NCBI RefSeq assembly: GCF_007845675.1
Contig: NZ_VOBR01000018.1
Span: 62,001-126,000, forward strand
Origin: Lentzea tibetensis
GTDB lineage: Bacteria; Actinomycetota; Actinomycetes; Mycobacteriales; Pseudonocardiaceae
Direction of reading: 5' to 3'
Length of the DNA: 64,000 nt
Part shown: positions 14,647 through 42,646 of the stretch, one piece after another
Numbering within the stretch: position 1 is the first letter of the stretch
Layout of the letters: every line of letters starts with the position of its first letter
Made by a program: the position numbers and the translations under genes
The notes under the pieces: model-generated
Told to the model about the DNA's origin: nothing
What the model saw: only the letters and a program-made list of their open reading frames with translations
Database searches by the model: none

Positions 14647-14650
<4 letters not shown>

Positions 14651-20363: not shown

Positions 20364-20567
20364 ATGGGCATCGACGACGCCGACACGATCTTCCAGGTCG
20401 TGGTCAACGAGCAGGACCAGTACTCGATCTGGTTCGCCGACCGCGCACTGCCCGCCGGCTGGACCGCAGACGGCACCACCGGCACGAAGCAGGAGTGCCT
20501 GCAGCACATCGACACAGTCTGGACCGACATGCGACCCCGTTCCGTCCGCGAGCGCGTCAGCAGCTGA
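20364..20567 (+). CDS. MbtH-like protein
   Basis: 67 aa, with GGAG upstream. Family signatures are all present: NEQDQYSIWF, LPAGW, and CLQHIDTVWTDMRPRS. MbtH proteins bind A domains as chaperones or activators and are often needed for soluble, active adenylation. The position between two NRPS genes indicates that it serves the A domains of this cluster. Confidence 0.96.
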   Translation: MGIDDADTIFQVVVNEQDQYSIWFADRALPAGWTADGTTGTKQECLQHIDTVWTDMRPRSVRERVSS

Positions 20568-28466: not shown

Positions 28467-29509
28467 CCGTAGTCGATGCGCGAGACGTCAGCGTGCACGC
28501 GCTGCTCGCCTCGCACCCGTTGGTGGCCAAGGTGTTCGTCGTCCAGCAGGACGGCCGGACCGTCGTGATGGTCGTGCCGCGCAGGCAGGCCAGGATCCCC
28601 GACCAGGTGTCGCGGACCGTCCAGCTGCGCGACCGCGTCCTCCGGCTCGCTCCACAACGCGTGCTTCAGGTCGGCGTCGGTGACGCGGATCTGCCGGACG
28701 CGCTGGCGAAGCACTGCGCGGTGTACCGGCTCGTCGAGCCGCTCCAAGCCGCGGAAGCGCTCAAGACAGACCGGTACGACCTGGTGCTGCTGGACCTGGC
28801 CGCACCCAAGCTGTCCACTTTGGACATACCGGCCGCGGTGCTCGCCGCGTTGAGCCGCACCGGCGCGGTGTTCGTGGCCAACCTCCGCGACCCCCGCGTC
28901 GAACGGCTCGCGAGCTGGACCCGCACCGGCGAACCGCGCTCGACCCAGGACGCGGCCGGCTGGTCACCTCCGGCACTGGTGCGCGGCCTCGCCGACGTGC
29001 CCGGCGTCGAGGTGCACGCCTACCCGCCGCTCGGCCCGGTCGGCGACTTCGACGTGGTGCTGCGCCACGCCGGTGAGGCCGCCAAGGTGCCGATGCTGCG
29101 CTGGAACCGCGAGGTGCAGTCGCCGGCGCACCTGTCCCGCCTGCTCTCCGAACGCTGCGTCGAACGCGTCCGGCTCGTCGGCATCCCGCTCGCCGGCGTC
29201 GTCGACAACGTGCTCGCCTGGCGGGAGAACGCCCCGCGCTCGGCAGGCGTCCGCTACGGCTTCGGTCTCGGCGTCGACTGGCGCGAGGTCGAGGCCATCA
29301 GTGCCGATCACGGCTACGACGTCACGTTCGTCGCGTCGCTCACCGGCACCGAGTACCACTTCGACGCGGTGCTCGAACGTTCCGGCAGACCGCCCCGCCG
29401 CCCGCCTGACCAGCTGGCACCGCTGCTGCGGCGGTGGCTGGCCGAACGGGCACCGGACATCGGTCCGGTCGACCTCGCTGTTCTCGACGACTTCGGTGGT
29501 GTGCTGTGA
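28463..29509 (+). CDS. NRPS-type methyltransferase-like protein with A-domain flanks
   Basis: 348 aa. Its organisation mirrors an N-methyltransferase inserted between A8 and A9 of an A domain, cut out as a separate protein. The start (about 1-45) resembles the end of an A domain (HPLVAKVFVVQQDGR...). A SAM-methyltransferase-like core runs about 55-200 (VLQVGVGDADLPDAL in place of VLEIGVGxG). The second half (VRLVGIPLAGVVDNVLAW; VDWREVEAISADHGYDV) matches the back half of NRPS MT domains. The end (LRRWLAERAPDIGPVDLAVLDDF) looks like A9. The SAM-binding glycine loop is imperfect, so activity is uncertain. It is coupled to the A-domain gene (ATGA), implying it works on the same residue. Confidence 0.6.
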   Translation: MTVVDARDVSVHALLASHPLVAKVFVVQQDGRTVVMVVPRRQARIPDQVSRTVQLRDRVLRLAPQRVLQVGVGDADLPDALAKHCAVYRLVEPLQAAEALKTDRYDLVLLDLAAPKLSTLDIPAAVLAALSRTGAVFVANLRDPRVERLASWTRTGEPRSTQDAAGWSPPALVRGLADVPGVEVHAYPPLGPVGDFDVVLRHAGEAAKVPMLRWNREVQSPAHLSRLLSERCVERVRLVGIPLAGVVDNVLAWRENAPRSAGVRYGFGLGVDWREVEAISADHGYDVTFVASLTGTEYHFDAVLERSGRPPRRPPDQLAPLLRRWLAERAPDIGPVDLAVLDDFGGVL

Positions 29510-30378
29510 CTCGTACGGTTGTGGTCGGTGGCGCCGGTCAGGTGGGGGAGCTCTTCACCCGCCTGTGCCTCAAGGGTGGCCGGGTCGTGTCGATCGACGG
29601 TGGAGACACGCTCGTACCGGGAGCTGAATCCGTCACGGGTGACGCGTGCACCCCGACCGACGCCATGCTCGACGAGATCAGCGAAGCGGACGTGGTCATC
29701 TTCGCCCTGCCGGAACGCGCCGCGCTCGCCGCGGCACGAGCCTGCGCGCCCGCCGTCCGGCCGGGCACGTTGCTGGTGGAGACGCTGTCGGTGCAGCAGG
29801 TCGTCACACGGGGGTTGACCGTGCTCGCCGAAGAACGCGGTGCCGAGGTGTGCGGGCTGAACCCGATGTTCGCGCCGGCACTGGGTTTCGACGGCAACGC
29901 GGTCGCGGCGATCAGGGTGGTCGACGGCCCGCGCACCGCGACCATGATCGACCTGATCGAGGACTCCGGCGCGGACGTCGTCACGATGTCGGCGGAGGAG
30001 CACGACCGGATCACCGCGGTGCTGCAGGCCGCGACGCACGCCGCCGTGCTGGCGTTCGGCAGCGTCGTCGCGGAACAGGGAGACATCAAGGCTCTCATCG
30101 CGCTCGCACCACCGCCTCACCTGACGTTGCTCGCGTTGTTGGCCCGGATCACCGGTGGCAACCTGGACGTGTACTGGGACATCCAGGCCGCCAACCCCAG
30201 CGCGGCCGACGCGCGTGCCGCGTTGAGCGAGGCGGTCACGGTGCTGGACAAGCTCGCGACGGTCGGCGACCGGGACGGGTTCTGGGAGTGGGTGCGCCGG
30301 ATCGACGACCACCTCGGCGACCACGGCCCTGGGCTGCGCGACCGCTGCGCCGAGCTGTTCGCACTGCCGAGCCGGTAG
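29506..30378 (+). CDS. Prephenate/arogenate dehydrogenase (TyrA/PapC-like)
   Basis: 290 aa; GTG 29506 overlaps the preceding stop (GTGA). Rossmann motif VVVGGAGQVGELF at the N-terminus. The helical C-terminal half carries the TyrA-type signature SAEEHDRITAVLQAATHAAVL. Closest family roles are oxidative decarboxylation of prephenate to 4-hydroxyphenylpyruvate or, in antibiotic clusters, of 4-amino-4-deoxyprephenate (PapC/CmlC type). A chorismate mutase gene at the other end of the cluster (42374) would supply prephenate. No PapA-like aminodeoxychorismate synthase is in the window, which favours the hydroxy rather than the amino series. Confidence 0.8.
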   Translation: MTRTVVVGGAGQVGELFTRLCLKGGRVVSIDGGDTLVPGAESVTGDACTPTDAMLDEISEADVVIFALPERAALAAARACAPAVRPGTLLVETLSVQQVVTRGLTVLAEERGAEVCGLNPMFAPALGFDGNAVAAIRVVDGPRTATMIDLIEDSGADVVTMSAEEHDRITAVLQAATHAAVLAFGSVVAEQGDIKALIALAPPPHLTLLALLARITGGNLDVYWDIQAANPSAADARAALSEAVTVLDKLATVGDRDGFWEWVRRIDDHLGDHGPGLRDRCAELFALPSR

Positions 30379-30391: not shown

Positions 30392-31975
30392 ATGAAGACG
30401 GTCCGCGACGTCACCCGTGACCTGATGCGGCAGCTGGGGCTCACCACGGTGTTCGGCAACCCCGGCACGACGGAGATCGCGTTCCTGACCGACTGGCCGG
30501 ACGACTTCCGCTACGTCCTCGGACTCCAGGAGTCGGCGGTCGTCGCGATGGCCGACGGGTACGCGCACGCCGCCCGGCGGCCGGTGCTGGTGAACCTGCA
30601 CTCCGCCGGTGGTCTCGGGCACGGGCTCGGACACGTCTTCACCGCGTTCAAGAACCGCACGCCGCTGATCGTGCTGGCCGGGCAGCAGATGCGCACGCTG
30701 CTGCCCGACGACCCGTTCCTCGGCGCGAAGGACGCGGCCGAGTTCCCCAAGCCGTACGTGAAGTGGAGCTGCGAACCGGCCCGCGCGCAGGACGTTCCCG
30801 CCGCGTTGGCACGGGCTTTCCACGTCGCCACCCAGGCGCCGCAGGGCCCGGTGTTCCTGTCCGTCCCCGTCGACGACTGGGACCAGCCGTTCGACGGGCC
30901 GGTGCCGGTCCGGCCGCGCATCCCCGGTTTCGCACCGGATCCGGAGACTTTGCAGGCGTTGGCGGAGGCGCTGAACAACAGTGAACGACCGGGCATCGTC
31001 GCCGGCCCCGCGATCGACGAGGACGGTGCGGTCGACGACCTCGTCGCGCTGGCCGAGAAGCTGAACGCCGGTGTGTGGGCGGCCGGTGTGTCACCGCGCT
31101 GTTCGTTCCCGGAGAACCACGCGTTGTTCCGCGGTTTCATCAGCCCCGAGCGCAAGGCGACCGCGGAGGCGTTGGCCGAGCACGACGTCGTGCTGGTGCT
31201 CGGCGCGCCCGCGTTCACCTACCACGTCTACCGCGGCGAGTCGGAAGTCCCGCTGCCACCGCTGTTCCTGGTCTGCGACGACGACCAGGAGCTCGCACGG
31301 GCCCGTGAAGGCGTCGGCCTGCGGTCGACGATGAAGCTCGCGATCACCGCTCTGCACGACCTGGTCGTGCAGAGCGATCGGGAACGACCGGCCGTGCTGC
31401 ACAGGCCGCCGCGGCCGGTCGAGACCACTCCGCTGTCCGCGGGTTTCGTGTACTCGACCATCGCGGAACTGCTGCCGGACAACGCGATCGTCGTCGAGGA
31501 AACGCCGAGCCACCGCACTCTGCTGCACGATCACCTGCCGATCACGAGCACCGACTTCGGTTTCCTCACCACGGCCAGTGGCGCGCTGGGCTACGGCCTT
31601 CCCGCGGCGGTGGGTGCGGCACTCGCGCGTCCGGAGCGGAAAGTCGTCGCGGTCATCGGTGACGGCTCGTCGATGTACAGCATCCAGGCGTTGTGGACCG
31701 CGGCCCGCGAGGAACTCCCCGTCGCGTTCGTGATCCTCGACAACGCCCAGTACTCCGCCGTCCGAACGCTGGGCGCGGCCGCGGGTGGGCGCAACATTCC
31801 CGGCGTCGACCTGGGCGACCTCGATTTCACCGCACTGGCAAGGGGAATGGGGTGTGCGGCGCACACCGTCACTCAGCCCGACGAACTGAAAACCGCACTG
31901 GCGCAGGCGTTCGCTGATGACGTACCGCACCTCGTTCACGTTGTGGTGGACCAAAAACCACCAGCCATGTACTGA
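30392..31975 (+). CDS. Thiamine-diphosphate decarboxylase, benzoylformate decarboxylase-like
   Basis: 527 aa; ATG 30392 with GAGGGG upstream. Three-domain ThDP fold: N-terminal GNPGTTEIAF with the activating Glu, the His segment HSAGGLGHGLG (about residue 70), and the C-terminal cofactor motif GDGSSMYS...LDNAQYSAV. The HSAGGxG segment and GNPGTTE are typical of benzoylformate (arylglyoxylate) decarboxylases. Following a TyrA-like enzyme, it could process an aryl-2-oxo acid. Alternatively it could act on a small 2-oxo acid to make a C2 unit. The sequence alone does not decide. Confidence 0.82.
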   Translation: MKTVRDVTRDLMRQLGLTTVFGNPGTTEIAFLTDWPDDFRYVLGLQESAVVAMADGYAHAARRPVLVNLHSAGGLGHGLGHVFTAFKNRTPLIVLAGQQMRTLLPDDPFLGAKDAAEFPKPYVKWSCEPARAQDVPAALARAFHVATQAPQGPVFLSVPVDDWDQPFDGPVPVRPRIPGFAPDPETLQALAEALNNSERPGIVAGPAIDEDGAVDDLVALAEKLNAGVWAAGVSPRCSFPENHALFRGFISPERKATAEALAEHDVVLVLGAPAFTYHVYRGESEVPLPPLFLVCDDDQELARAREGVGLRSTMKLAITALHDLVVQSDRERPAVLHRPPRPVETTPLSAGFVYSTIAELLPDNAIVVEETPSHRTLLHDHLPITSTDFGFLTTASGALGYGLPAAVGAALARPERKVVAVIGDGSSMYSIQALWTAAREELPVAFVILDNAQYSAVRTLGAAAGGRNIPGVDLGDLDFTALARGMGCAAHTVTQPDELKTALAQAFADDVPHLVHVVVDQKPPAMY

Positions 31976-32081
31976 CGAAAGACCGCCACGAGAGACACGG
32001 AACTTAGTGTCGGTGGCGGGTCGGCGCACAGCGCCACCGGATGACTCTTTCGAGAAATGCCCCTTGTGGAGAGGAAGAGAT

Positions 32082-33431
32082 ATGAAGGCGGAGCTGGCGA
32101 TGTTCGGCGGCAAGCCCGCGGTACGGACGGAATACCGGAGACTCGAATGGCCGGTGGTGACCGATGCCGAGCGCGAAGCCGTGCTGCGCGTGCTGGACCA
32201 CCGGAAGTTCACCGTCGGTGCGAAGAACGAGCCCGAGATCCACGGCCTCGAGTCCGAGTGGGCCGAGTTCTGCGACACCCGGTACGCGGTCGCCGTCAAC
32301 AGCGGCACGGTCGCACTGGAGCTGGCGCTGACCGCGCTCGGCATCCAGCCCGGCGACGAGGTCATCGTGCCCGCGCTGAGCTACGTGGCGACCGCGATGG
32401 CGCCGCTCTACCAGCTGGCGATCCCGGTGTTCGTCGACATCGACCCCGTCACGTTCAACATCGACGTCACCAAGATCGAAGAGAAGATCACCAACCGCAC
32501 GCGCGCGATCGTGCCGGTGCACCTCGGCGGTCTGCCCGCGGACATGGACGAGATCCGTGCGCTCGCGAGGAAGTACAACCTGCTCGTCGTCGAGGACGCG
32601 GTGCAGGCGCAGGGCGGCAAGTACCGCGGCGAGACGATCGGCTCGCTCGGCGACGTCGGCTGCTGGAGCCTCAACGTCGAGAAGTCCATCCCCACCTGCG
32701 GTGAGGGCGGCCTCGTCACGACGAACAACGAGGAGGTCGCGGAGCGGATCAAGTCGCTGCGCATCCTCGGCGAGGACCTCAGCACCGAAGAGCGCCTCTA
32801 CGTCTCCACGACCCGCGGCTCCAACCTCAAGCTCAGCTCGGTGCTCGCCGCGTTCACCCGCGCGCAGCTCGCCAGCTTCTGGGACTACCAGGCCAAGCGC
32901 GACGTCAACGTCCCCGTCTTCCTCGACCGGCTGGCCCAGCTGCCCGGCATCACCATCCCGACCGTGCCGAACGACCGGACGCACATGTGGCACATGCTGC
33001 GCTTCCGCTTCGACGCCGAAGCCGCCGGTCTCGGTGACCTGTCCGCGGGCCGGTTCCGCGCCGCGCTGCGCCGCGCACTGCTCGCCGAGGGCGTGCCGCT
33101 CACCCACTACCAGCTCATCCCGTTGCCCGGTCAGCCCGTGTTCACCAAGCAGGACGCGTACGGCCAGGGCCTGCCGTGGTCGCTGCCCGGCGCGAACCCG
33201 CAGCGCTACGACCTCGCCGACTACCCGGTCACCTGCCAGGTCATCGAGGACTCGCTGTGCCTGCGCCGCATGCACCTCAACCCCGGTGCCGGCCCCGCGC
33301 TGGAGGAGTACGCGGACGCGTTCGACCGGGTCTGGAACAACCTCGACGTCATCGGCCGGATGGCCCGTCAGCTGGACTACGCGCCGCCGTGGGCGGCCGT
33401 GCCGGGCTTCGAGAAGGTCGGTGCGGCGTGA
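32082..33431 (+). CDS. DegT/DnrJ/EryC1/StrS-family PLP aminotransferase
   Basis: 449 aa; ATG 32082 preceded by GAGGAAGAG. Motifs: VNSGTVALELAL (PLP phosphate), VVEDAVQAQGGKY (Asp to the pyridine N, about residue 174) and SLNVEKSIPTCGEGG, where the Lys (about 202) should form the Schiff base. In carrier-protein pathways such as vazabitide, an aminotransferase of this fold puts the second amino group on the AmCP-bound 6-oxo intermediate after C2 addition. Its position directly before the split transketolase, with GTGA overlap, supports that role here. Confidence 0.9.
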   Translation: MKAELAMFGGKPAVRTEYRRLEWPVVTDAEREAVLRVLDHRKFTVGAKNEPEIHGLESEWAEFCDTRYAVAVNSGTVALELALTALGIQPGDEVIVPALSYVATAMAPLYQLAIPVFVDIDPVTFNIDVTKIEEKITNRTRAIVPVHLGGLPADMDEIRALARKYNLLVVEDAVQAQGGKYRGETIGSLGDVGCWSLNVEKSIPTCGEGGLVTTNNEEVAERIKSLRILGEDLSTEERLYVSTTRGSNLKLSSVLAAFTRAQLASFWDYQAKRDVNVPVFLDRLAQLPGITIPTVPNDRTHMWHMLRFRFDAEAAGLGDLSAGRFRAALRRALLAEGVPLTHYQLIPLPGQPVFTKQDAYGQGLPWSLPGANPQRYDLADYPVTCQVIEDSLCLRRMHLNPGAGPALEEYADAFDRVWNNLDVIGRMARQLDYAPPWAAVPGFEKVGAA

Positions 33432-34267
33432 CGGTCCAGGCCGAGGCGGTCACAGCGGACCTGTTCCGGTTGGAACGGGTGGCGCTCGCCGTGCGCGAGA
33501 ACGTGCTGGCCATCGGCGCGGGGCCGATCGGCACGCACGTCGGCGGATCGCTGTCGGCGACGGACATCCTCGTCGCGCTGTACTTCGACGTCCTGCGGGT
33601 GCGGCCGGACGAGCCGCGCTGGGACGACCGGGACCACTTCATCCTCAGCAAGGGCCACGCGAGCGCCGCGCTGTACGCGACGCTCGCCGAGCGGGGCTTC
33701 ATCTCCCGCGACGAGCTGGTCACCTACGGCAGGGCGACGGGCAGGCTGATGGCCCACCCGACGCTGTCCGTACCCGGTGTCGAGTTCGCCACCGGAGCGC
33801 TCGGCCACGGCCTGTCGCTCGGCGTCGGGCTCGCACTGGCCGCGCAGCGGGCGTTGCGTCCCAACCGGGTGTTCGTCGTGCTCGGTGACGGTGAGCTCCA
33901 GGAGGGCTCGGTCTGGGAGGCGGCCATGTCGGCCGCGCACCTCGGGGTGGGCAACCTCACCGCGATCGTCGACCGGAACCGCCTGCAGATCAACGGTTCC
34001 ACCGAGGATCGCATGGCACTCGAGCCGCTCACCGACAAGTGGCGCGCGTTCGGCTGGGACGTGTCCACTGTGGACGGGCACGACTTCGCCGAACTGGTAC
34101 CGGCACTGCGGGACGCGCCCGGTGGCGGCAGGCCGTCCGTGATCATCGCGGACACCGTCAAGGGGCGCGGCGTCCGGCACCTCGAGCACCGCAAGCAGGG
34201 CCACTTCGCCAAGCTCAGCCCCGAGGCCTACGAGAGAGCACTCGCCGCATTGCGAGCGGTCGCATGA
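33428..34267 (+). CDS. Transketolase, N-terminal (ThDP-binding) subunit
   Basis: 279 aa; GTG 33428 overlaps the aminotransferase stop. Shows LSKGHASAALYATL (catalytic His loop), GALGHGLSLGVG and the ThDP motif GDGELQEGSVWEAA...VDRNRLQING. This is the first half of a transketolase split into two genes, as often seen in secondary metabolism. With the next gene it should transfer a two-carbon ketol unit. In AmCP pathways the acceptor is the carrier-bound glutamate semialdehyde. Confidence 0.93.
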   Translation: MTVQAEAVTADLFRLERVALAVRENVLAIGAGPIGTHVGGSLSATDILVALYFDVLRVRPDEPRWDDRDHFILSKGHASAALYATLAERGFISRDELVTYGRATGRLMAHPTLSVPGVEFATGALGHGLSLGVGLALAAQRALRPNRVFVVLGDGELQEGSVWEAAMSAAHLGVGNLTAIVDRNRLQINGSTEDRMALEPLTDKWRAFGWDVSTVDGHDFAELVPALRDAPGGGRPSVIIADTVKGRGVRHLEHRKQGHFAKLSPEAYERALAALRAVA

Positions 34268-35211
34268 CCAGCACCTTGTCCGCCGCCACGTCCGACAGGG
34301 AGGCCTACCGGGCCACCCTGCTGGAGCTCGCCCGTGCCGACCAGCGGATCTGGTGCCTCGACTCGGACACCGGCGGGCTGGAGAAGGTGTTCGAGTCCGA
34401 GCTGCCCGGCCAGTACGTCGACCTGGGCATCGCGGAGGCGAACCTGATGTCGGTCGGCGCGGCGCTGGCGAGCACGGGACTGCTGCCGTTCGTCAACACG
34501 ATGGCCGCGTTCGCGTCGGCTCGCGCGCTGGAGCAGGTGAAGATCGACATCGCCTACCACGCGCTGCCGGTGCGGATCGTCGCGACGCACTCCGGGTTCT
34601 CGGCCGCGCATCTCGGGCCGACGCACCACGCGCAGCAGGATCTCGCGATCATGCGGTCGCTGCCGAACATGACCGTGATGACGCCGGCCGACGCGGGCGA
34701 GACCGTCCGCATGGTGCGGGCGGCCGCGTACCTGCCGGGCCCGGTGTACATCCGGATCGGCCGCAACGCCGTCGAGAACGTGTACGACGAGGACGCGGAC
34801 TTCACCGTCGGCCGGGCGGTCGAGCTGCGCTCCGGTGACGACGTGACGATCGTCGCCGCGGGCTCGTACCCGGTGGTGTTCGCACTGGAGGCCGCCGAAC
34901 GCCTTGCCGCGCAAGGCATCGAGGCCACCGTGCTGAACATGCACACCATCAAGCCCCTCGACATGCCCGCCTTGATCAAGGCGGCGGGCACGACCAGAGG
35001 CATCGTGACGGTCGAGGACCATTCGTTGCTCGGAGGGCTCGGCGGCGCGATCGCCGAGGCCATCTCCGTGCACCGGCCGACCCGCGTGCTGCGGGTCGGC
35101 GTGGCGGACGCGTTCTGCGCCCGTCCCGGCACCCATCGCGAGCAGCTCGTCGCGGGCGGCGTCTCACCCGAGCACGTCATCGCGGCCGCCCGCGCGATCG
35201 TCACCAGATGA
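34264..35211 (+). CDS. Transketolase, C-terminal (pyrimidine-binding) subunit
   Basis: 315 aa; ATG 34264 overlaps the partner's stop (ATGA), consistent with equimolar synthesis of the two halves. Motifs include YVDLGIAEANLMSVGAALA with the conserved Glu that activates ThDP, THSGFSAAHLGPTHHAQQD, and the C-terminal domain VTVEDHSLLGGLGGAIAE. Completes the heteromeric transketolase encoded with the preceding gene. Confidence 0.93.
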   Translation: MTSTLSAATSDREAYRATLLELARADQRIWCLDSDTGGLEKVFESELPGQYVDLGIAEANLMSVGAALASTGLLPFVNTMAAFASARALEQVKIDIAYHALPVRIVATHSGFSAAHLGPTHHAQQDLAIMRSLPNMTVMTPADAGETVRMVRAAAYLPGPVYIRIGRNAVENVYDEDADFTVGRAVELRSGDDVTIVAAGSYPVVFALEAAERLAAQGIEATVLNMHTIKPLDMPALIKAAGTTRGIVTVEDHSLLGGLGGAIAEAISVHRPTRVLRVGVADAFCARPGTHREQLVAGGVSPEHVIAAARAIVTR

Positions 35212-35243: not shown

Positions 35244-35423
35244 ATGACAACCGCCACCGCGAGCATTTGCCCTGACTGCACGGAGACCGTACCGGTGTCG
35301 GCCGGCCTGCGCGTCACGTCGATCGTCGTGTGCCCCGGTTGCAAGGTCGAGCTCGAGGTCATCAGCCTCGACCCGGCCGAGTTCGCCCTGGCGCCGGAGA
35401 TCGAGGAAGACTTCGGGGAGTAG
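35244..35423 (+). CDS. lysW: LysW-like amino-group carrier protein (AmCP)
   Basis: 59 aa with a strong upstream site (AGAGGAGA). Two CxxC zinc pairs (CPDC at 9-12 and CPGC at 30-33) form the knuckle of LysW proteins, and the acidic C-terminus ends EEDFGE, matching the EDWGE tail whose last Glu receives the substrate's amino group. Known role: the carrier's terminal Glu protects the alpha-amino group of glutamate or aminoadipate while side-chain chemistry proceeds. Here it sits between transketolase and LysX genes, the arrangement expected for a secondary-metabolite AmCP as in vazabitide/azinomycin-type pathways, rather than primary lysine synthesis. Confidence 0.95.
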   Translation: MTTATASICPDCTETVPVSAGLRVTSIVVCPGCKVELEVISLDPAEFALAPEIEEDFGE

Positions 35424-35425
35424 CC

Positions 35426-36268
35426 GTGCTGGCCGTCCTGACGACCCGCGCCCGCCTGGAAGAGCGCATGATCTTCGACGCGCTCGAACGGCGAGGCGTC
35501 GCCTACGAGGCGGTCGACGACCGAACGCTGGTCGAAGACCTGCAGGCAGGTCCCGCTGTGCGGTACAGCGGGGTGTTCAACCGGATCATGTCGCACACGC
35601 GCAGCGTGTACGCCGCCCGCCTGTTCGAGGCATCGGGTCATCAGGTCCTCAACTCCAGTCAGGTCGTCGAGACCTGCGGCGACAAGATCCTCACGTCGCT
35701 GGCACTCGTGCGCGCGGGTCTGCCGACACCCCGGACGGTGGTGTCGGTGACGCCCGACGGAGCGTTGAAGGCCATGGAGATGATCGGGTACCCGGCGGTG
35801 GTCAAGCCCGCCGTCGGGTCCTGGGGCAGGCTGCTGTCCAAGGTCAACGACCGGGACGCGGCGGAGACGCTGATCGAGCACAAGCAGGCCCTGAAGTCGC
35901 CCGCCCACAACGTCTACTACGTCCAAGAGTTGATCGACAAACCCGGCCGCGACATCCGGGTGATCGTGCTCGGCGACCGGGTCGCCGCCGCGGTCTACCG
36001 GCGGTCCGAGCACTGGATCACCAACACCGCGCGGGGTGCGACGACCGAGCGGTGTGCTCTGACACCGGACCTGGTGAAGCTTTCCCTGCGGGCGGCCGAA
36101 GCTGTCGGTGGCGGGATGCTCGCCGTCGACCTGATCGAGCGGTCTTCCGGTGAGCTGCTGGTCACCGAGGTCAATCACACGATGGAGTTCCACGGTCTGG
36201 CCGCGGTCGCGGACGTCGACATCGCGGACCTCATCGTCGAGCACGTGCAGGAGGTGCTGTTGCGATGA
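35426..36268 (+). CDS. lysX: LysX-like ATP-grasp ligase (AmCP-glutamate ligase)
   Basis: 280 aa; GTG 35426, two bases after the LysW stop, with GGGGAG just upstream. RimK-family ATP-grasp: GYPAVVKPAVGSWGR (ATP-binding Lys and loop), YYVQELIDKPGRDIRV, and the metal site LLVTEVNHTMEFHG, whose NxTMEF is the LysX/ArgX signature. It should join the alpha-amino group of glutamate (or a near analogue) to the C-terminal Glu of the carrier encoded just upstream. Substrate choice cannot be read with certainty. Confidence 0.93.
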   Translation: MLAVLTTRARLEERMIFDALERRGVAYEAVDDRTLVEDLQAGPAVRYSGVFNRIMSHTRSVYAARLFEASGHQVLNSSQVVETCGDKILTSLALVRAGLPTPRTVVSVTPDGALKAMEMIGYPAVVKPAVGSWGRLLSKVNDRDAAETLIEHKQALKSPAHNVYYVQELIDKPGRDIRVIVLGDRVAAAVYRRSEHWITNTARGATTERCALTPDLVKLSLRAAEAVGGGMLAVDLIERSSGELLVTEVNHTMEFHGLAAVADVDIADLIVEHVQEVLLR

Positions 36269-36417
36269 GCGCGGACTCTGGGGTCGTCGGCGGTGAGCTC
36301 GTCCGGTTCCTGCTCCAGCACCCGGATGCGAGTTGGGCCTGGGCGCTCGTGCCGGGCCTGGTGCGGCTGACGCCGCGAGTGGTCGAGGAGGTGGAAGCCC
36401 GATGCGAGCGTCGGTGA
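36265..36417 (+). CDS. 50-aa ORF resembling a duplicated LysY N-terminus
   Basis: ATG 36265 overlaps the LysX stop (ATGA) and the frame runs to TGA at 36417, overlapping the start of lysY by 16 bp. The reading GGELVRFLLQHPDA nearly repeats the beginning of LysY (GGELVRLLLQHPEV), and the DNA at 36289-36325 matches 36438-36474 (offset 149 bp). It lacks the Rossmann glycine loop and is far too short for a reductase. Most likely a partial 5' duplication that may now serve only as a translational bridge between lysX and lysY; an expressed small protein cannot be excluded. Confidence 0.5.
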   Translation: MSADSGVVGGELVRFLLQHPDASWAWALVPGLVRLTPRVVEEVEARCERR

Positions 36418-37424
36418 TCGGCGGCAGCGGGTACATCGGCGGAGAGCTCGTCCGGTTGCTGCTGCAGCACCCCGAGGTCGACCTGATGCACGTCACGTCG
36501 TCGCGGCACAGCGGACGCCCGCTGCGGGCCGTGCACCCGAACATGCGCGACCAGACCGACCTCACGTTCGTGCCGGACGAGGAGGTCACCGCGTGCGACG
36601 TGGTGTTCCTCGCGGTGCCGCACGGCGCGGCGGCGAAGTCGCTCGACAAGTGGTCCGAGATCGCACCGAAGATCGTCGACCTCAGCGCCGACCACCGGCT
36701 GCACGACTCGGCTGCCCGCGAACGGTTCTACAGCGGTCCGGGGCCGGATCCCGAGTGGCTGTCCCGATTCCAGGCCGGGTTCCCCGAGCTGAACCGGGAC
36801 GGGCTGCGCGGCGCCGACCACATCTCGGTGCCGGGCTGCATGGCGAACGCCGCGATCCTCGCGCTGCATCCCTTGGCACGCGCGGGACTCGTCGAAGGGC
36901 CGGTGCAGGTCGACGCGCGCACCGGGTCGAGTGGCGGCGGCCGGACACCGGACGAGGGCAGCCACCACCCCGAACGCAGCGGCGCGCTGCGGATGGCCAA
37001 GCCGCACGGGCACCGGCACATCGCGGAGATCGAGCAGGCGTGCGGCGTGAAGGTGCACATGTCGGTCACCGCGATCGAGGCGGTGCGCGGCGTGCAGGTC
37101 GTCTGCCGCGTCACGCCCTCGCGTCGCGTGTCCGAGCGCGAGCTGTGGGCGTTGTACCGCGAGGCGTACGGCAAGGAGCCGTTCGTGCGGCTCGTGCGGG
37201 AACGCTCCGCGCTGCACCGGCTGCCCGAGCCGAAGATCCTCAGCGGCACCAACTACTGCGACGTCGGCTTCGCGCTGAACGCCGACGGCGACCACCTCGT
37301 GGTCGTGGCCGCGCTGGACAACCTGGTGAAGGGAGGTGCGGGCAATGCCGTCCACTGCTTCAACATCGCCAACGGTTTCGACGAGACCGCTGGGCTCCGG
37401 TTCGCCGGACTCCACCCGGTCTGA
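36402..37424 (+). CDS. lysY: LysY-like AmCP-glutamyl-phosphate reductase
   Basis: 340 aa; ATG 36402 with GAGGAGG upstream. N-acetyl-gamma-glutamyl-phosphate reductase fold: Rossmann VIGGSGYIGGELVRLLL, catalytic Cys in SVPGCMANAA (about 146) and the conserved STG...PHGHRHIAEIE-type segment (RMAKPHGHRHIAEIEQ). Reduces the carrier-bound acyl phosphate to the semialdehyde. Order in this cluster is W-X-Y-Z-K, all tightly packed. Its 3' end overlaps the kinase gene by about 80 bp. Confidence 0.93.
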   Translation: MRASVIGGSGYIGGELVRLLLQHPEVDLMHVTSSRHSGRPLRAVHPNMRDQTDLTFVPDEEVTACDVVFLAVPHGAAAKSLDKWSEIAPKIVDLSADHRLHDSAARERFYSGPGPDPEWLSRFQAGFPELNRDGLRGADHISVPGCMANAAILALHPLARAGLVEGPVQVDARTGSSGGGRTPDEGSHHPERSGALRMAKPHGHRHIAEIEQACGVKVHMSVTAIEAVRGVQVVCRVTPSRRVSERELWALYREAYGKEPFVRLVRERSALHRLPEPKILSGTNYCDVGFALNADGDHLVVVAALDNLVKGGAGNAVHCFNIANGFDETAGLRFAGLHPV

Positions 37425-38241
37425 GCGGTACGTCATCAAGGTCGGCGGCTCGCTCGGCGCCGACATGTCCCGTGCCTGCGCCGACATCCGCGCGCTGGTC
37501 GATGCCGGGTGCTCCGTGGTCGTCGTGCACGGCGGCGGTGCCGAGTCCGACAAGCTGGCCGCGGAACTGGGGCGTCCGCCGCGCTACCTGACGTCGACGA
37601 AGGGCAGGCGCAGCCGCTACACCGACGCATCACAACTCGACGTGCTCACGTTGGGCATGCTCGGCCGCGTCAAGCCACCGCTGCTGGTGGAGCTGCTGGG
37701 CATGGGCGTGAACGCGGTCGGACTGTCCGGAGTGGACGGCGGGCTGGTGACCGCGCGGCGCAACCCGCCGGTCCGGGTGGTCGTCGACGGCGAGGAACGA
37801 GTGGTGCGCGACGACCTGTCCGGGCGCATCACCTCGGTGAACCCGCGGCTGGTGCGGACGTTGCTGGACGCGGGATACGTGCCCGTCGTGTCACCGCCCG
37901 CGCTGGACCCGGTGGCCGGCCCGCTGAACGTCGACGCGGACCGGTTCGCCGCCGAGCTCGCGATGGCGATGGAAGCGGACTGGCTGATCATCCTGTCGAA
38001 CGTGCCGGGGCTGCTGCGCGACCAGGACGACCCGTCGTCGCTGGTGTCGTCGATCCCGGTCGGTGAGCTGCCCGCGTACCTGGACCTGGCAGGCGGGCGG
38101 ATGAAGGTGAAGCTGCGCAGCGCGGGTGACGCGTGCGCGGCGGGGGTGCGGCACGTCGTCCTCGCGGACGGCAGGCACTCCTCGCCGGTGCTGGCGGCGC
38201 GAGCGGGTACCGGGACGACTTTCGTCGGAGGAACAGGATGA
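37345..38241 (+). CDS. lysZ: LysZ-like AmCP-glutamate kinase
   Basis: 298 aa from ATG 37345, chosen because GGGAGG lies 8 nt upstream inside lysY; the family's conserved part begins later at YVIKVGGSL. Amino-acid-kinase fold with KVGGSL, VVVVHGGGAESDKLA, LTLGMLGRVKP, GLSGVDGG, and the nucleotide-site region VPGLL...AGGRMKVKLRSA. It phosphorylates the free carboxylate of the carrier-bound substrate for the LysY reduction. The long overlap with lysY gives an N-terminal extension of about 32 residues of low complexity, so the true start may differ. Confidence 0.9.
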   Translation: MPSTASTSPTVSTRPLGSGSPDSTRSERYVIKVGGSLGADMSRACADIRALVDAGCSVVVVHGGGAESDKLAAELGRPPRYLTSTKGRRSRYTDASQLDVLTLGMLGRVKPPLLVELLGMGVNAVGLSGVDGGLVTARRNPPVRVVVDGEERVVRDDLSGRITSVNPRLVRTLLDAGYVPVVSPPALDPVAGPLNVDADRFAAELAMAMEADWLIILSNVPGLLRDQDDPSSLVSSIPVGELPAYLDLAGGRMKVKLRSAGDACAAGVRHVVLADGRHSSPVLAARAGTGTTFVGGTG

Positions 38242-39284
38242 GCACGCGAGCAGAGAACCTGTTGCGGCAGATGGTCGACATCCCGTCGCCGTCGGGGGAG
38301 GAGGCCGCGATCGCCGGCTTCCTGGCCGAGGTGCTGCCGGACTTCGGATTCGACGAGGCCTACGTCGACGAGGTGGGCAACGTGATCGCCCGCCGGGGAG
38401 ACCCCGCCGCACCCATGATCATGCTGGTGGGGCACATGGACACCGTGCCGAGCCAGATCCCGGTGCGCCAGGAGGGCACGATCCTGCACGGCCGCGGCAC
38501 CGTCGACGCCAAGGGCCCGCTGGCCACCATGATCTGCGCGGCCGCGGAGGCTTCCGCCGAAGGCGTGCAGATCGTCGTCGCCGGCGTGGTCGAGGAGGAG
38601 ACGTTCGGCAAGGGCGCCACGCACCTCGCCGAGACGTTCCGGCCCGCGGTCGGGTTCGTCGGCGAGCCCAACGGCTGGGCCGGCGTCGGCATCGGCTACA
38701 AGGGCCGCGTCATGATGCAGATCGACGTGAGCCGCCCGTCCGTGCACACCGCGAGCCCCGAGGAGAAGGCGTCCGAGGCCGGTGTCGCGTTCTGGAACAA
38801 GGTCGTGGACTACTGCACCGAGGTGTCCACATCGGACAAGGCGTTCGAACGGCCGATCGCGACGCTGGTGGAGATGAAGGGCGACATCGAGGTCGCGTCG
38901 CTCACGATCTCCGTGCGCACGCCACCCGGCTTCGACCTGCCCGCGTTCGAGGAGTTCGTCGTCGACGCGGCGGGCTCGGACCTGCTGAAGATCGACGACC
39001 GCACGCCCGCGGTGCGCGTCGACACGGCCGGTTCGGCGGTGCGCGCGCTGATGGCCGGGATCCGGGCGCGCGGCGAGCGGCCGCGGCTGAAGCTCAAGAC
39101 CGGCACCGCGGACCTCAACATCGTCGAGCCCGCGTGGCAGGTGCCGATGGCGGTGTACGGGCCGGGTGACTCGAGCCTGGATCACACCGACCGCGAGCAC
39201 ATCGACCTCGTCGAGTACCAGCAGGCCATCGACGTGCTGAAAGACGCGCTGGAGCGCCTCGCGGAGGATCTCCGCGCCGGTTAG
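38238..39284 (+). CDS. lysK: LysK-like M20 metallopeptidase releasing product from AmCP
   Basis: 348 aa; ATG 38238 overlaps the kinase stop (ATGA). Zinc-peptidase marks: VGHMDTVPSQIP (His and Asp), HGRGTVDAKGPLA (bridging Asp) and VVEEETFGKGA (catalytic Glu-Glu). LysK/ArgE-type enzymes hydrolyse the isopeptide bond between the carrier's terminal Glu and the finished amino acid. This is the last step of the carrier pathway, delivering the free diamino acid for NRPS use. Confidence 0.92.
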   Translation: MSTRAENLLRQMVDIPSPSGEEAAIAGFLAEVLPDFGFDEAYVDEVGNVIARRGDPAAPMIMLVGHMDTVPSQIPVRQEGTILHGRGTVDAKGPLATMICAAAEASAEGVQIVVAGVVEEETFGKGATHLAETFRPAVGFVGEPNGWAGVGIGYKGRVMMQIDVSRPSVHTASPEEKASEAGVAFWNKVVDYCTEVSTSDKAFERPIATLVEMKGDIEVASLTISVRTPPGFDLPAFEEFVVDAAGSDLLKIDDRTPAVRVDTAGSAVRALMAGIRARGERPRLKLKTGTADLNIVEPAWQVPMAVYGPGDSSLDHTDREHIDLVEYQQAIDVLKDALERLAEDLRAG

Positions 39285-39344: not shown

Positions 39345-40172
39345 ATGGTGCTCTGGGGCCTCGCGCCGGTCGCGACCCGGTTCCTGGTGCTGACGTCCGA
39401 CCCGCTCGGCGTGATCGCGATCCGGCTGTCGTTCGCGTCGCTGTGCTTCGCGCCGCTGCTGCCGTGGATCAAACCGACGCGCGAGTCCGTGTCGTGGCCG
39501 ATGATCGTGTGCGGGTTGGTCGGGATCGTCGGTTACAACGTGCCGATGACGTACGGGATCCAGCACGTGCAGGCCGGTCTCGCCGGTGTGCTGCTGGCGA
39601 CCGAGCCGCTGTGGATCGCGGTGCTGAGCGTCGTCTTCCTGAAGGAGAAGCTGACCCGGCCGCTGCTGCTGGGGCTGCTCGTGGCGTTCGCTGGCGTCGT
39701 GACGCTGAGCGTGGGCGGCGGGATCGCGTTCGACCCGTCCATGCTCGCCGGGGCGGGCCTGGTGCTGTTCGGCGCGTTCATGTGGGGCGTGTACTCCGTT
39801 GCTGTGGCGCCGCTGGTGCGGCGGTTCGGCGCGTTGCGGGTGAGCGCGGTGACGTTGTGGATCGGCACCGCGCCGCTGCTGGTGTTCAGCGTGCGCGCGA
39901 TGGTCACCACGGGCTCGAACCTGACCCCGACGGCCTGGCTGGTGCTGTTCCTCTACGGCCTGGGCCCGCACCTCGTCGGCATGCTGCTGTGGAACTACGG
40001 CCTGTCGAAGGTGCCGAGCAGCCGGGCCGGCCTGCTGCTCAACCTCTACCCGGTGGTGAGCGTGGCCGCGGGCGTCGCGCTGCTCGGTGAACACGTCGAT
40101 GCCGCCACCCTGATCGGTGGCGGCATCGTCCTGCTGGGCCTCGCAATGTCCCAGCTCAGGGCTCGTGAGTGA
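39345..40172 (+). CDS. EamA/DMT-family transporter
   Basis: 275 aa from ATG 39345. Two EamA repeats with about ten hydrophobic helices (VLWGLAPVATRFLVL..., then a second half after about residue 140). The start is uncertain: the reading frame extends upstream without a stop to the LysK TAG at 39282 and contains a plausible N-terminus (TEKRQAPALIAITVAM) but no ATG or GTG in that stretch, only an ATC at 39297; starting at 39345 trims the first helix. Position at the end of the operon suggests export of product or intermediate; substrate unknown. Confidence 0.8.
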   Translation: MVLWGLAPVATRFLVLTSDPLGVIAIRLSFASLCFAPLLPWIKPTRESVSWPMIVCGLVGIVGYNVPMTYGIQHVQAGLAGVLLATEPLWIAVLSVVFLKEKLTRPLLLGLLVAFAGVVTLSVGGGIAFDPSMLAGAGLVLFGAFMWGVYSVAVAPLVRRFGALRVSAVTLWIGTAPLLVFSVRAMVTTGSNLTPTAWLVLFLYGLGPHLVGMLLWNYGLSKVPSSRAGLLLNLYPVVSVAAGVALLGEHVDAATLIGGGIVLLGLAMSQLRARE

Positions 40173-40210: not shown

Positions 40211-42292
40211 TTAAGCGACGTGGTGGCCGGGGGTGGCGACGGGCAGCGTGGTGGCGAAGGCGGACAGGTGGGTGCGGTGCGGCCGCGCGATCGTCAGCTT
40301 GTGCAGCCACGGCAGGTTGGGCCGTTCCTGCGCCAGCCACAGCTCCGCGCGCTGCGTCACGTCGCGCAGCAGGTCCTCGCCGATCTCCCGGACGACGTCC
40401 GGCGGACGCACCAGCTGACCGGGGTGCTCCAGTGCGCGCCGCGCGTGCGCCTCGAGCCATGAGAACACGTCCACGAGCCGGTCGAGCGCCGTCGCCAGCT
40501 CCTCCAGGTCGAGCTCGGCGTCGGCGAGCTGACGCGCGCGGATCCTGGTGAGCGAGTGGAACTCGTAGTGCGTGCCGCCCAGCTGGTTCTCCGTGACGAC
40601 GTCGAGCAGCTGGTGGTCGACGAGCTTGTCCAGCAACCGCTGCGCCTTGTCCTCGGTGACACCGGCGACGGTCGCCGCGACCCACCCGGAGATGTGCGGC
40701 AGGTCCGGGATGCTGAGCTTCAGCCACAGCGCGCGTTCGGTCGGCGAGAGCCGGTTGGCCGCGGCGGCCAGCCGGGTGCCGGTGTCGAGCGAACCGTAGG
40801 CCAGCTCGGCGATCCGGTGGGTCTCGTCGGCGATGTGGTCGACGAACCGGTCCAGCCGCACCGTCGGCCGCGTGTGCAGCCGGGCACCCGCGGCGCGCAG
40901 CGCGAGCGGCAGGTGACCGCACAGGTCGACGATCGACCGCGCGCTCTCCGGTTCCCGCGCGATCCGCTCGTTGCCGATGAGCCTGCCGAGCAGCTGCACC
41001 GCGTCAGCCATGTCGAGCCCGTCGATCCGCCGCGACGTCACGCCCGGCGTCTCGACCATGCTCGACTGGCTCGTCACGAGCACCGCGCTGTCCGTGCCAC
41101 CGGGCAGCAGCGGCTCGATCTGGGCGCCGGACTCCGCGTCGTCGAGCACGATCAGCAGTCGCTTGCCCGCGGTGATGCTGCGGAACAGCGTCGCCTGGTT
41201 CGCCAGGTCGGTGGGAATGCTGCGCTCCGGCGTGCCCAGCGCGTAGAGGAAGCTGCTCAGCACCTCTTGCGGCTCAAGGGGAGTGGTGCTGCCGCGCAGA
41301 TCCGCGTGCAGCTGCCCGTCGGTGAACCGCTCGCGCGCCCGGTGTGCGGCGTGCACGGCCAGCGCGGACTTGCCGACACCGCCGCGCCCGATCAGCGCGA
41401 CGACCGGTGGCCGTTCGCGGCGCAGCTCGTGGTCGATCCACTCCAGGTGCTCGGTGCGGCCGGTGAAGTCACCGACGTCCGCGGGCAGCTGCGCCGGGAC
41501 CTTCGTGGCGTACCTGGCGCGCTGCGGCTGCGGCGACGTGATCGGGTGCCCGGCGATGATCCGCCGGTGCAGGTCCTGCAGCCGGGCGCACGGGTCCAGC
41601 CCGAGGTTGCTGACGAGCGTCGCCCGCCCCGCCCGGTACACGGCGAGCGCGTCGGCCCGCCGGTCGGACAGGTACAGCGCCGTCATCAGCCTGCCGCGCA
41701 ACTGTTCCCGCAGCGGGTGCTCGTCGACCAGCAGCCGCAGCTCGCTGATCAGCTCCCGGTGCCTGCCCATGGCGAGCTCGATGTCGAGGCACTCCTCGAG
41801 CACCGAGAGCCTGCGCTCGGCCCAGTACGCGGCGACCGCCTCGATGGCCGGGCTCTCCAGCTCCGCCAGCGGACGTCCCTGGAACAACGCCAGAGCCGCG
41901 CGGTACTCGTCGACCGCACCGCCCAGGTCGCCGTCCTCGGCGCGTTCCCGGCCGCGCAGCATCGCCTTCTCGAACACCTGCGCGTCGAGGCACCCCTCGG
42001 GCAGCCGCAGCAGGTAGCCGCCGCGCGCCGTCTCGATCAGCCCGGTCCCGCCGGCCTTCTCGAACGCGCTGCGCAGCCGCCACACGCAGGTCTGGATCTG
42101 CTTGTCCGCCGTGACCGGTGGGGCGTCGCCCCACACGGCGTCGATGATCCGCCCGACCGACACGACCTTGTTGGCCTCGGTCAGCAGCAGTGCGAGGACC
42201 GTCAGCTGACGGTTCTTCGCGAGCTGGACCACCCGGTCCGCGATCGTCACCTGCAATGGTCCAAGAATGCGGAAGAAAACGTCGGTGCGCAT
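40211..42292 (-). CDS. SARP-family regulator with NB-ARC domain (AfsR-like, cluster-situated)
   Basis: 693 aa. N-terminal OmpR-type winged helix (about 1-90; RILGPLQVTIADR..., RNRQLTVLALLL, IIDAVWGD), bacterial transcriptional activator domain (about 95-245), then an NB-ARC ATPase with P-loop ALIGRGGVGKSAL (about 305) and LIVLDDAES Walker B. It is shorter than full AfsR; the C-terminal third is helical without clear TPRs. SARPs activate secondary-metabolite clusters by binding direct repeats near -35 elements. Its position at the cluster edge marks it as the likely pathway activator. It lies 81 bp downstream of the chorismate mutase gene. Confidence 0.93.
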   Translation of the reverse strand: MRTDVFFRILGPLQVTIADRVVQLAKNRQLTVLALLLTEANKVVSVGRIIDAVWGDAPPVTADKQIQTCVWRLRSAFEKAGGTGLIETARGGYLLRLPEGCLDAQVFEKAMLRGRERAEDGDLGGAVDEYRAALALFQGRPLAELESPAIEAVAAYWAERRLSVLEECLDIELAMGRHRELISELRLLVDEHPLREQLRGRLMTALYLSDRRADALAVYRAGRATLVSNLGLDPCARLQDLHRRIIAGHPITSPQPQRARYATKVPAQLPADVGDFTGRTEHLEWIDHELRRERPPVVALIGRGGVGKSALAVHAAHRARERFTDGQLHADLRGSTTPLEPQEVLSSFLYALGTPERSIPTDLANQATLFRSITAGKRLLIVLDDAESGAQIEPLLPGGTDSAVLVTSQSSMVETPGVTSRRIDGLDMADAVQLLGRLIGNERIAREPESARSIVDLCGHLPLALRAAGARLHTRPTVRLDRFVDHIADETHRIAELAYGSLDTGTRLAAAANRLSPTERALWLKLSIPDLPHISGWVAATVAGVTEDKAQRLLDKLVDHQLLDVVTENQLGGTHYEFHSLTRIRARQLADAELDLEELATALDRLVDVFSWLEAHARRALEHPGQLVRPPDVVREIGEDLLRDVTQRAELWLAQERPNLPWLHKLTIARPHRTHLSAFATTLPVATPGHHVA

Positions 42293-42373: not shown

Positions 42374-42646
42374 TCACCCGATGATCTCGTCCTCCAGCCG
42401 GCAGGCCTCGTTGATCAGCAGCGTCGCCAGCTCCGCCATGAAGTCCGGTGACACGCCCAGCGCGCGCCCGCGCTCCGCGTACGCGCGACAGACCGCGCGC
42501 ACGCGGTCCGGCTGCATCATCGGGATGCCCTCGGCCTTCTTCACCGCGGCGACCTCGCCGCACACCCGCAGCCGGTCCGCGATCAGCGCGGCCAGCTGGC
42601 CGTCGAGCACCTCGATCCGTTCCCGGAAGGGTCGGAGGATCTCCAT
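42374..42646 (-). CDS. Chorismate mutase, AroQ type
   Basis: 90 aa all-helical protein: RERIEVLDGQLAALIADRLRVCGEVAAVKK is the AroQ first helix with its active-site Arg and Lys; MMQPDRVRAVCRAYAERG and LINEACRLEDEII complete the three-helix pattern. Converts chorismate to prephenate, or the amino analogue in Pap/Cml pathways. Placed with the cluster regulator and matching the TyrA-like gene at 29506, it probably feeds an aromatic precursor into the NRPS pathway rather than serving primary metabolism. Confidence 0.9.
   Translation of the reverse strand: MEILRPFRERIEVLDGQLAALIADRLRVCGEVAAVKKAEGIPMMQPDRVRAVCRAYAERGRALGVSPDFMAELATLLINEACRLEDEIIG

Follow-up and report, generated by a model that had tools for sequence, protein, structure and literature searches.

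The 64,000-nucleotide stretch of Lentzea tibetensis analysed here (the window; positions 62,001 to 126,000 of contig NZ_VOBR01000018.1, RefSeq assembly GCF_007845675.1) appears to carry a tetrahydroisoquinoline (THIQ) antibiotic cluster of the dnacin/naphthyridinomycin type with a functional amino-group carrier protein (AmCP) sub-cluster built into it. This reading as a whole is given a probability of about 0.7, the joining of the carrier-built acid to the THIQ being kept apart from it. The identity as a dnacin-type THIQ cluster is very likely, as judged from sequence, and the AmCP set is likely to be functional and co-regulated. The new element is the THIQ-AmCP fusion and its tie to a benzoylformate decarboxylase (BFD)-like enzyme, both halves being of known kinds.

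The comparison draws on a family-level survey of 391 genomes and a class-level survey of 393 others. Fused clusters (THIQ plus AmCP) are seven, that of the window included: G000, G248, G385 (Umezawaea tangerina), G076, Microbispora amethystogenes, M. triticiradicis and G555. The THIQ-only loci compared, in the stretches fetched, are five (G057, G060, G386, G219 and G220), and the AmCP-only stretches come from Streptomyces sennicomposti (21 kb), Actinophytocola algeriensis (61 kb) and G042:C3 (20 kb). A gene-presence table sets the window genes against 13 other loci (5 fused, 5 THIQ-only, 3 AmCP-only), G555 having been added separately; the contigs of G248, M. amethystogenes and M. triticiradicis end near or inside the three-module nonribosomal peptide synthetase (NRPS), the glycolyl-gene side lying beyond the contig ends.

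Probable tetrahydroisoquinoline genes and the dnacin locus

Among PDB structures, the closest to the cluster's Fe/2-oxoglutarate enzyme is 6DAW, that of NapI, which desaturates arginine at C4-C5 in naphthyridinomycin biosynthesis (PMC10884159); the match pointed to the dnacin (din) cluster (PMC7570522). The NCBIfam label of the same protein differs, naming the related GntD enduracididine hydroxylase (402 bits, cut-off 345). Gene order in the window is that of DinR3-E-F-G-H-I-J-K-L-M-N-O in Table 1 of PMC7570522, with the BFD-like gene and the AmCP genes up to the EamA gene inserted between the prephenate dehydrogenase (PDH)-like gene and that of a Streptomyces antibiotic regulatory protein (SARP). 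The locus in G057 is apparently that of dnacin itself, since 15 of its proteins agree in length with that table (DinC, D, R3, F, H, N, O, R4, Q, S, T, U, R7, R8, Y), and a few others differ in length, as is expected of automatic start choice.

The 20 kb to the left of the window (L152) hold counterparts of DinP, DinV, two ABC transporters, DinX, DinY and a berberine-bridge-type FAD oxidase, as well as the glycolyl-unit genes (NapB-E/DinU-T-S-Q) at 57-68% identity. The latter comprise an E1/transketolase-lipoyl pair, an acyl carrier protein and a KASIII, the DinS counterpart having transketolase, lipoyl and acyltransferase domains (Pfam). The counterpart of DinV, a PapA-type synthase with GATase and chorismate-binding domains (Pfam), is adjoined by an HpaB-like hydroxylase, and together with the DinE and DinF counterparts it represents the PapA/B/C-type aminophenylalanine genes of the dnacin branch. 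Because the gene order matches din and the left flank holds many of the remaining genes, the window is best read as the larger part of a THIQ cluster. The THIQ features found include a fatty acyl-AMP ligase (FAAL) with carrier domain, Ala-type condensation-adenylation-thiolation (C-A-T) modules, a DinJ/NapJ-like C-A-T-reductase (C-A-T-R) protein and the NapI-type enzyme.

Common to the window cluster and din (Actinosynnema pretiosum, dnacin B1) are the order from the SARP, chorismate mutase and PDH genes through G to O, the PapA-type, HpaB-type and glycolyl genes, and the adenylation (A) codes. The dnacin cluster, in contrast, has neither a LysW set nor a BFD-like gene in the 80-kb stretch searched, while it has the DinC peptidase and the UvrA-like DinR8, neither of which was matched in 104 kb around the window. 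The nap locus (Streptomyces lusitanus) has NapI, J, L, N, O and B-E as counterparts via Table 1 of PMC7570522, NapI alone having been compared directly; no AmCP is mentioned for it in the literature excerpts consulted. The first domain of the C*-A-T-R protein reads HQxxxDR and not HHxxxDG, as it does in 10 of 11 loci (HQxxxDQ in G057); its D-x14-Y spacing, which one of the ordinary C domains in the three-module NRPS has too, does not discriminate for Pictet-Spengler activity.

As far as each was read, the A codes are common to the seven fused and the five THIQ-only clusters: the three-module NRPS has Ala-type codes, the free A protein (A814) DGG[S/H/A]SGDVW and the reductive module DAGG[V/I]AE[V/I]W; the variable letter of A814 is S in nine loci, H in G076 and G385, and A in G386. 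The codes were extracted with a GrsA segment as reference; the fourth letter of the Ala-type codes depends on the alignment (D/N against T/S between two readings), and coverage of the Ala-type modules is incomplete in G060, G386, G219, G220 and both Microbispora contigs. The Ala assignment follows from PMC7570522, in which all A domains of DinO are said to recognise alanine. Since the codes are nearly identical with and without AmCP, no adenylation slot is left for the AmCP acid, which would then not be an NRPS extender unit, and the THIQ building blocks look the same in both kinds of cluster. Two schemes were rejected: an A domain re-tuned to the AmCP acid is ruled out by the codes common to AmCP-less clusters, and a replacement of the glycolyl-unit genes by LysW, transketolase and aminotransferase by the DinQ/S/T/U counterparts left of the window, in G385 and in G076 (in G555, DinQ and DinS counterparts were found, where the fetched stretch ends).

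Several neighbouring genes stand apart from this comparison. The DinG counterpart (28463-29509), present in most compared THIQ loci, has one stretch that is methyltransferase-like by eye; DinG itself has a U. tangerina protein as best match (Table 1, PMC7570522). The regions 22-5470 and from the chorismate mutase gene to 47126 have no counterpart in the 13 compared loci, save for a distant match to a short-chain dehydrogenase/reductase (SDR) in G076; the former, between the DinQ counterpart and the three-module NRPS, holds HSP70-like, OmpA-like, HTH/DUF5753 and DUF222 genes that occur in none of the 13. A YcaO protein (53852-56095, minus strand) with a weak N-terminal winged-helix match is kept at 73%, along with kinase/regulator genes and small SARPs, next to the THIQ-AmCP cluster in G385 and G076, and not in the fetched G248 stretch. 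The left flank was covered for three of the fused Pseudonocardiaceae clusters, and all three have a lipoprotein-like gene with a TTHB210 domain (L152, 12910-13716), with no match in the other stretches.

The carrier protein genes and their probable amino acid

Profile matches for all five genes bear out the complete LysW-X-Y-Z-K set that a first-pass annotation had placed at 35244-39284, as well as the LysW tail it had read as EDFGE (C-terminus EEDFGE), the zinc CPxC pairs (CPDC and CPGC) and the co-directional position behind NRPS genes, an aminotransferase and a split transketolase. The genes are closely spaced or overlap: between the 18 co-directional ones that begin with the thioesterase gene and end with EamA, the gaps measure -4 to +133 bp. 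The sequence has the features of an AmCP set, with a LysW that ends in Glu and carries the zinc cysteines, the LysX, LysY, LysZ and LysK proteins, the transketolase pair and the aminotransferase. LysW is the sole PF21344 match in the 9.36-Mb genome and lies below the NCBIfam lysW model (41 bits, cut-off 53); its tail is DFGE in all 10 members of its clade and DWGE in the 50 other rows with a recovered tail, two rows being truncated. A LysW-type carrier as such is not rare in the family, PF21344 matches occurring in 30 of 391 genomes, 28 of them over the cut-off. The EamA gene is found in 4 of 10 genomes searched, namely three of the four Pseudonocardiaceae fusions, where it lies behind LysK, and A. 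algeriensis.

No homocitrate synthase (LysS) passes the cut-off in the genome of the window (best 242 against 414 bits), and dapA does so twice; the set is therefore ascribed to secondary metabolism and not to primary lysine synthesis. The kinship with the azinomycin and vazabitide pathways that had been proposed for it is supported by the combination of W-X-Y-Z-K, aminotransferase and split transketolase. These parts are common to it and to the AmCP pathways of vazabitide A, azinomycin and ficellomycin (review PMC9570651), from which it differs by the DFGE tail and a separate LysX clade. The aziridine of azinomycin is reached by way of a sulfation (PMC9570651), and an aziridine-forming sulfotransferase was not recognised among the cluster genes scanned, a further difference from azinomycin-type pathways. 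With the Thermus/Chloroflexi lysine pathway the window system shares homologous LysW and LysX, including the LysX motifs WITNTARG and NHTMEF; unlike that pathway, it has no LysS over the cut-off, an extra transketolase, and a single carrier inside an antibiotic cluster. Elsewhere in the family, four loci (L126, L128, L132 and L134) form a deep LysX group (WRTNTHLG/WKTNTHLG, NANPEF) with their own aminotransferase, transketolase and X/Y/Z/K genes beside LysW, which by these features make up another AmCP subtype.

In archaeal LysX-type enzymes, a Gly-Phe signature goes with glutamate and Asn-Thr with aminoadipate (PMC10433800). The corresponding position, placed in the alignment from the residues named in that paper, is Gly-Leu in every one of the 10 members of the clade. 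T. thermophilus has Asn-Ser there and T. kodakarensis Asn-Ala, the ArgX structure shows Gly-Phe, and all 28 Chloroflexi rows read Thr-x; among 22 other actinobacterial AmCP LysX rows the position holds Gly in 17 and another residue in 5. NCBIfam names do not separate glutamate- from aminoadipate-type LysX, Z and K, and other actinobacterial AmCP proteins match the same models. Glutamate is the more likely amino acid to be loaded, though this is not proven, and with glutamate favoured the balance tilts towards a 2,6-diamino-5,7-dihydroxyheptanoate (DADH)-type acid as product. As regards the DADH logic of the first-pass annotation, the LysX signature fits glutamate and the transketolase pair and aminotransferase are present, while other LysX residues are aminoadipate-like.

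Distribution, junction gene and promoter repeats

NapI-like genes of at least 59% identity occur in 9 of the 391 family genomes (next best 50%), four with AmCP in the same cluster (G000, G248, G385 and G076) and five without a LysW match in the fetched locus; a divergent LysW lies elsewhere in the genomes of G060 and G220. Among the best 80 loci for LysX, relatives of 77-85% identity come from U. tangerina, S. sennicomposti, the two Microbispora species and A. algeriensis, the remaining 75 being at about 49-56%; G248, G076 and G042 are not among the matches listed. On both Microbispora contigs the THIQ core adjoins AmCP. In the class survey LysX falls below E 1e-90 in two genomes, M. amethystogenes again (100% over 3831 bases) and G555, a further fused cluster. 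The search for other clusters combining LysW and transketolase with FAAL and a reductase-terminated NRPS, as had been suggested, thus yields seven with that of the window, and the fusion is found in seven genomes from two actinobacterial families. No description of a THIQ-AmCP cluster was found in open-licence literature, subscription papers (e.g. on vazabitide and NapB/NapD) lying outside the scope.

In the gene table, the aminotransferase, both transketolase halves and LysW, X, Y, Z and K are present in the 5 fused and the 3 stand-alone members and in none of the 5 THIQ-only stretches; the aminotransferase is the first AmCP gene also in the three loci where the unit stands alone. A LysX tree was built from 62 rows, with 28 of the 75 loci of lower identity among them; in it the LysX of the window clusters with five other fused rows and the three stand-alone ones (100/99), and the 22 other actinobacterial AmCP rows fall outside this clade. 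Because the stand-alone rows lie inside the clade, the THIQ part may have been lost from some loci, or the fusion may have arisen more than once. The fused clusters group with moderate support in the trees of NRPS3, the C-A-T-R protein (11 rows, 88/93), and of FAAL (10 rows, 80/90), G555 being left out. S. sennicomposti has a partial SARP beside LysK, and its best genomic match to NRPS3 is at 43%. In A. algeriensis a tryptophan-halogenase-family gene (L035, 4630-6165) lies directly upstream of the stand-alone AmCP unit, and a GNAT gene lies near it; a gene of the same kind stands beside the unit in S. sennicomposti, preceded there by a putative SARP box.

The BFD-like gene is present in 7 of 7 fused clusters, in 0 of 5 THIQ-only and in 0 of 3 AmCP-only stretches fetched, homologues of 28-61% being found at other places in several genomes, outside fused clusters.

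SARP-bound promoters have heptamer direct repeats, and upstream of the aminotransferase in the fused clusters there is such a repeat of the form TGATACC-N4-CGAGAG with an 11-bp period. With at most one mismatch, the element precedes the aminotransferase in all seven fused clusters, from whose sites it was defined, and elsewhere it was found before FAAL in G057 and before the GNAT gene of S. sennicomposti; 26 control loci (503,311 bases) gave 0 matches at that level and 10 at up to two mismatches. A matrix built from the AmCP sites only, three of which (the Microbispora-type ones) are nearly identical, picks out an equally spaced TGAGAAC-N4-CGAGAG between FAAL and thioesterase genes in each of the seven fused clusters, with a regional E of 0.0016-0.016 in six and 0.046 in the window, values uncorrected for the 21 regions or for relatedness. 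Three of the five THIQ-only loci have sites as well, their FAAL regions giving 0.0009 (G057), 0.0008 (G060) and 0.016 (G219), with 0.26 for G386 and 0.42 for G220; two left-flank regions of the window's own genome gave 0.58 and 0.14. A scan of the window alone at three mismatches shows no excess (19 found, shuffle mean 26.7), so that the case for the element rests on the comparison across clusters. Because similar SARP-type repeats precede the AmCP operon and the FAAL gene, the two parts are probably co-regulated; that a SARP binds the repeats is inferred from their layout and from the SARP gene in the cluster.

Features of the THIQ-AmCP cluster, in window coordinates
Feature	Position	Strand	Evidence
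Three C-A-T modules with near-identical codes (DinO counterpart)	5891..14710	-	domain search; Pfam counts four condensation stretches, motifs three
FAAL and carrier domain (DinN), putative loader of the cryptic fatty acyl	14647..16605	-	62% to G057 locus; true start probably ~20 codons in
Similar putative SARP box before FAAL	16587..16604	-	matrix match, regional E 0.046
Type II thioesterase (DinM)	16707..17456	+	PF00975
A-T NRPS with degenerate C domain (DinL/NapL counterpart)	17453..20344	+	domain and motif reading
MbtH-like protein (DinK)	20364..20567	+	PF03621
C*-A-T-R NRPS (DinJ/NapJ counterpart)	20593..24948	+	75% to G057 locus over 1449 amino acids
NapI/DinI-type Fe/2-oxoglutarate enzyme, probable arginine 4,5-desaturase	24971..25993	+	best PDB match 6DAW, E 5e-140
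Free adenylation protein A814 (DinH/NapH counterpart)	26022..28466	+	PF00501; 55% to G057 locus; code DGGSSGDVW as in G057
DinG counterpart	28463..29509	+	gene position as DinG; no Pfam or NCBIfam match
Prephenate-dehydrogenase-like (DinF/PapC counterpart)	29506..30378	+	PF20463 (in longer frame); 47% to G057 locus
BFD-like thiamine diphosphate (ThDP) enzyme	30392..31975	+	NF005485, 677 bits (cut-off 493); PDB 4q9d, E 4e-128
Putative SARP box, heptamer repeat with 11-bp period, before AmCP operon	31978..31995	+	cross-cluster comparison
DegT-family aminotransferase, first gene of the AmCP unit	32082..33431	+	PF01041, E 1.6e-85
Transketolase, N-terminal half	33428..34267	+	PF00456, E 8e-42
Transketolase, C-terminal half	34264..35211	+	PF02779/PF02780
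LysW, carrier, 59 amino acids, tail EEDFGE	35244..35423	+	PF21344, E 5.7e-11
LysX, ligase loading the amino acid onto LysW	35426..36268	+	TIGR02144, 323 bits (cut-off 276); PDB 3vpd, E 1.9e-80
LysY, carrier-bound acyl-phosphate reductase	36402..37424	+	TIGR01850 argC, 333 bits (cut-off 234)
LysZ, carrier-bound amino acid kinase	about 37432..38241	+	[LysW]-aminoadipate kinase NF010659, 287 bits (cut-off 223); start codon uncertain
LysK, hydrolase releasing the product from LysW	38238..39284	+	[LysW]-lysine hydrolase NF003367, 364 bits (cut-off 363)
Predicted EamA/DMT amino-acid-type exporter	39345..40172	+	PF00892, E 1e-42; TIGR00950, 90 bits, below cut-off 230
SARP regulator (DinR3 counterpart)	40211..42292	-	PF03704; 55% to DinR3
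Chorismate-mutase-like (DinE/PapB counterpart)	42374..42646	-	PF01817; 67% to DinE

Weighing the possible products

In the model proposed, which follows work on dnacin and naphthyridinomycin, FAAL would start a fatty acyl-Ala-Ala-Ala leader, and the reductive C*-A-T-R module would join a ketose-derived glycolyl unit, a unit derived from p-aminophenylalanine (a product of the PapA-, chorismate mutase- and PDH-like genes that the free A protein would load) and 4,5-dehydroarginine (from the NapI-like oxygenase). On the carrier, by what is known of the family, LysX would put glutamate on the C-terminal Glu of LysW, LysZ and LysY would convert it to the semialdehyde, the transketolase pair would add a C2 ketol unit, the DegT enzyme would aminate, and LysK would release the DADH-type acid (the DADH route is also described in PMC9570651). 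The leading guess, held at somewhat less than even odds, is that this acid is used on the THIQ after assembly, the BFD-like enzyme being part of that link. If so, the clusters may define a new THIQ subclass whose DNA-alkylating core bears, or has been condensed with, a diamino-polyol acid built on the carrier; the partner for the link, an aldehyde or acyloin (e.g. from the 4-aminophenylpyruvate pool), would come from the BFD-like enzyme, a proposal as tentative as the guess on which it builds.

A number of observations weigh against the model. The DinC/NapG leader peptidase has no match in the 104 kb read, with a 39% homologue elsewhere in the genome; it is regarded as accessory, and its absence lowers the THIQ claim without dropping it. 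No amide-forming enzyme that would couple the acid to the THIQ was recognised among the fused-cluster-specific genes, not every one of which was scanned. The AmCP unit occurs without THIQ genes in the stretches fetched from S. sennicomposti, A. algeriensis and G042:C3, and the oxygenase tree, from which G555 was left out, does not group the fused clusters. The closest BFD homologue outside them (61%) lies elsewhere in A. algeriensis, an AmCP-only genome, in 18-kb surroundings that, for the gene set compared, show only DinC-, ABC- and BFD-like matches. Moreover, other genes have entered the junction of the BFD-like and aminotransferase genes in some fused clusters: an SDR-like one in G076, TauD- and ABC-transporter-type genes in M. 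triticiradicis, and in M. amethystogenes (L034, 1855-6414) a lantibiotic-dehydratase-N-like gene with a TbtD/PbtD-type thiopeptide pyridine synthase (410 bits, cut-off 325). Finally, LysX keeps the aminoadipate-type WITNTARG and NHTMEF of the T. thermophilus enzyme, and glutamate is therefore not certain.

A separate, co-produced metabolite is nearly as likely as a joined product: the AmCP genes may make a small exported amino-acid metabolite of their own, co-regulated with the THIQ antibiotic in a supercluster. Consistent with it, all A codes match those of AmCP-less clusters, EamA follows LysK in three of the four Pseudonocardiaceae fusions, and the stand-alone units adjoin transporter or acyltransferase genes (major facilitator superfamily (MFS) and GNAT in S. 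sennicomposti, EamA and GNAT in A. algeriensis, MFS in G042). The restriction of the BFD-like gene to fused clusters, among stretches fetched, weighs against this reading, and lasting co-occurrence in two families with similar promoter repeats exceeds mere neighbourhood, though a supercluster would show both as well. A carrier loading aminoadipate, with a C8 homologue or a lysine-type product, is unlikely. LysX does share HWITNTARG and NHTMEF with the rows from T. thermophilus and Chloroflexi, and in the tree it falls on the same side as they do, at a deeper fork that is weakly supported, but its signature is Gly-Leu and not Asn-Ser, Asn-Ala or Thr-x, lysine 6-aminotransferase is over the cut-off only in the two Microbispora of nine genomes searched, and the window's own genome has no LysS over the cut-off.

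Two further readings are very improbable. The first-pass annotation, which had not noted the THIQ nature of the upstream genes, had proposed that the product is a lipopeptide aldehyde or alcohol with a residue made by the AmCP genes, which the NRPS would have to load. The FAAL loader and reductase-terminated NRPS on which it relied are confirmed by domain searches, with MbtH and further NRPS genes. However, synteny with and identity to the dnacin locus, the NapI-type enzyme, the PapA-type and glycolyl genes, and A codes that stay near those of AmCP-less clusters mark them as a THIQ assembly line; in the dnacin and naphthyridinomycin lines the fatty acyl serves as a cryptic leader, and Pictet-Spengler and Mannich reactions follow on from the R domain (PMC7570522, section 7). 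It is just as hard to credit that the AmCP genes serve to provide ornithine or arginine for the dehydroarginine unit, with the transketolase unused: archaeal W-X-Y-Z-K with an aminotransferase can make ornithine (PMC10433800) and the LysX signature fits glutamate, yet both transketolase genes are kept in all 7 fused and 3 stand-alone loci, the stand-alone stretches have no homologue of the window cluster's NRPS genes, and five THIQ loci do without the AmCP set.

To return to the THIQ cluster with a built-in AmCP set, the finding points to a new kind of DNA-damaging THIQ antibiotic or to a pair of co-produced compounds; were the acid joined, an assembly line of the Pictet-Spengler type would draw on AmCP chemistry. 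THIQ antibiotics, antitumour leads among them, act on DNA by alkylation, and AmCP-type pathways build residues that are also able to alkylate DNA, as in azinomycin. The loci with and without AmCP among THIQ clusters, and with and without THIQ among AmCP units, form a natural comparison set for what the carrier genes and the additional ThDP enzyme do, and a cluster family uniting both, recurrent in seven genomes from two families of actinobacteria, offers a concrete source of undescribed chemistry.

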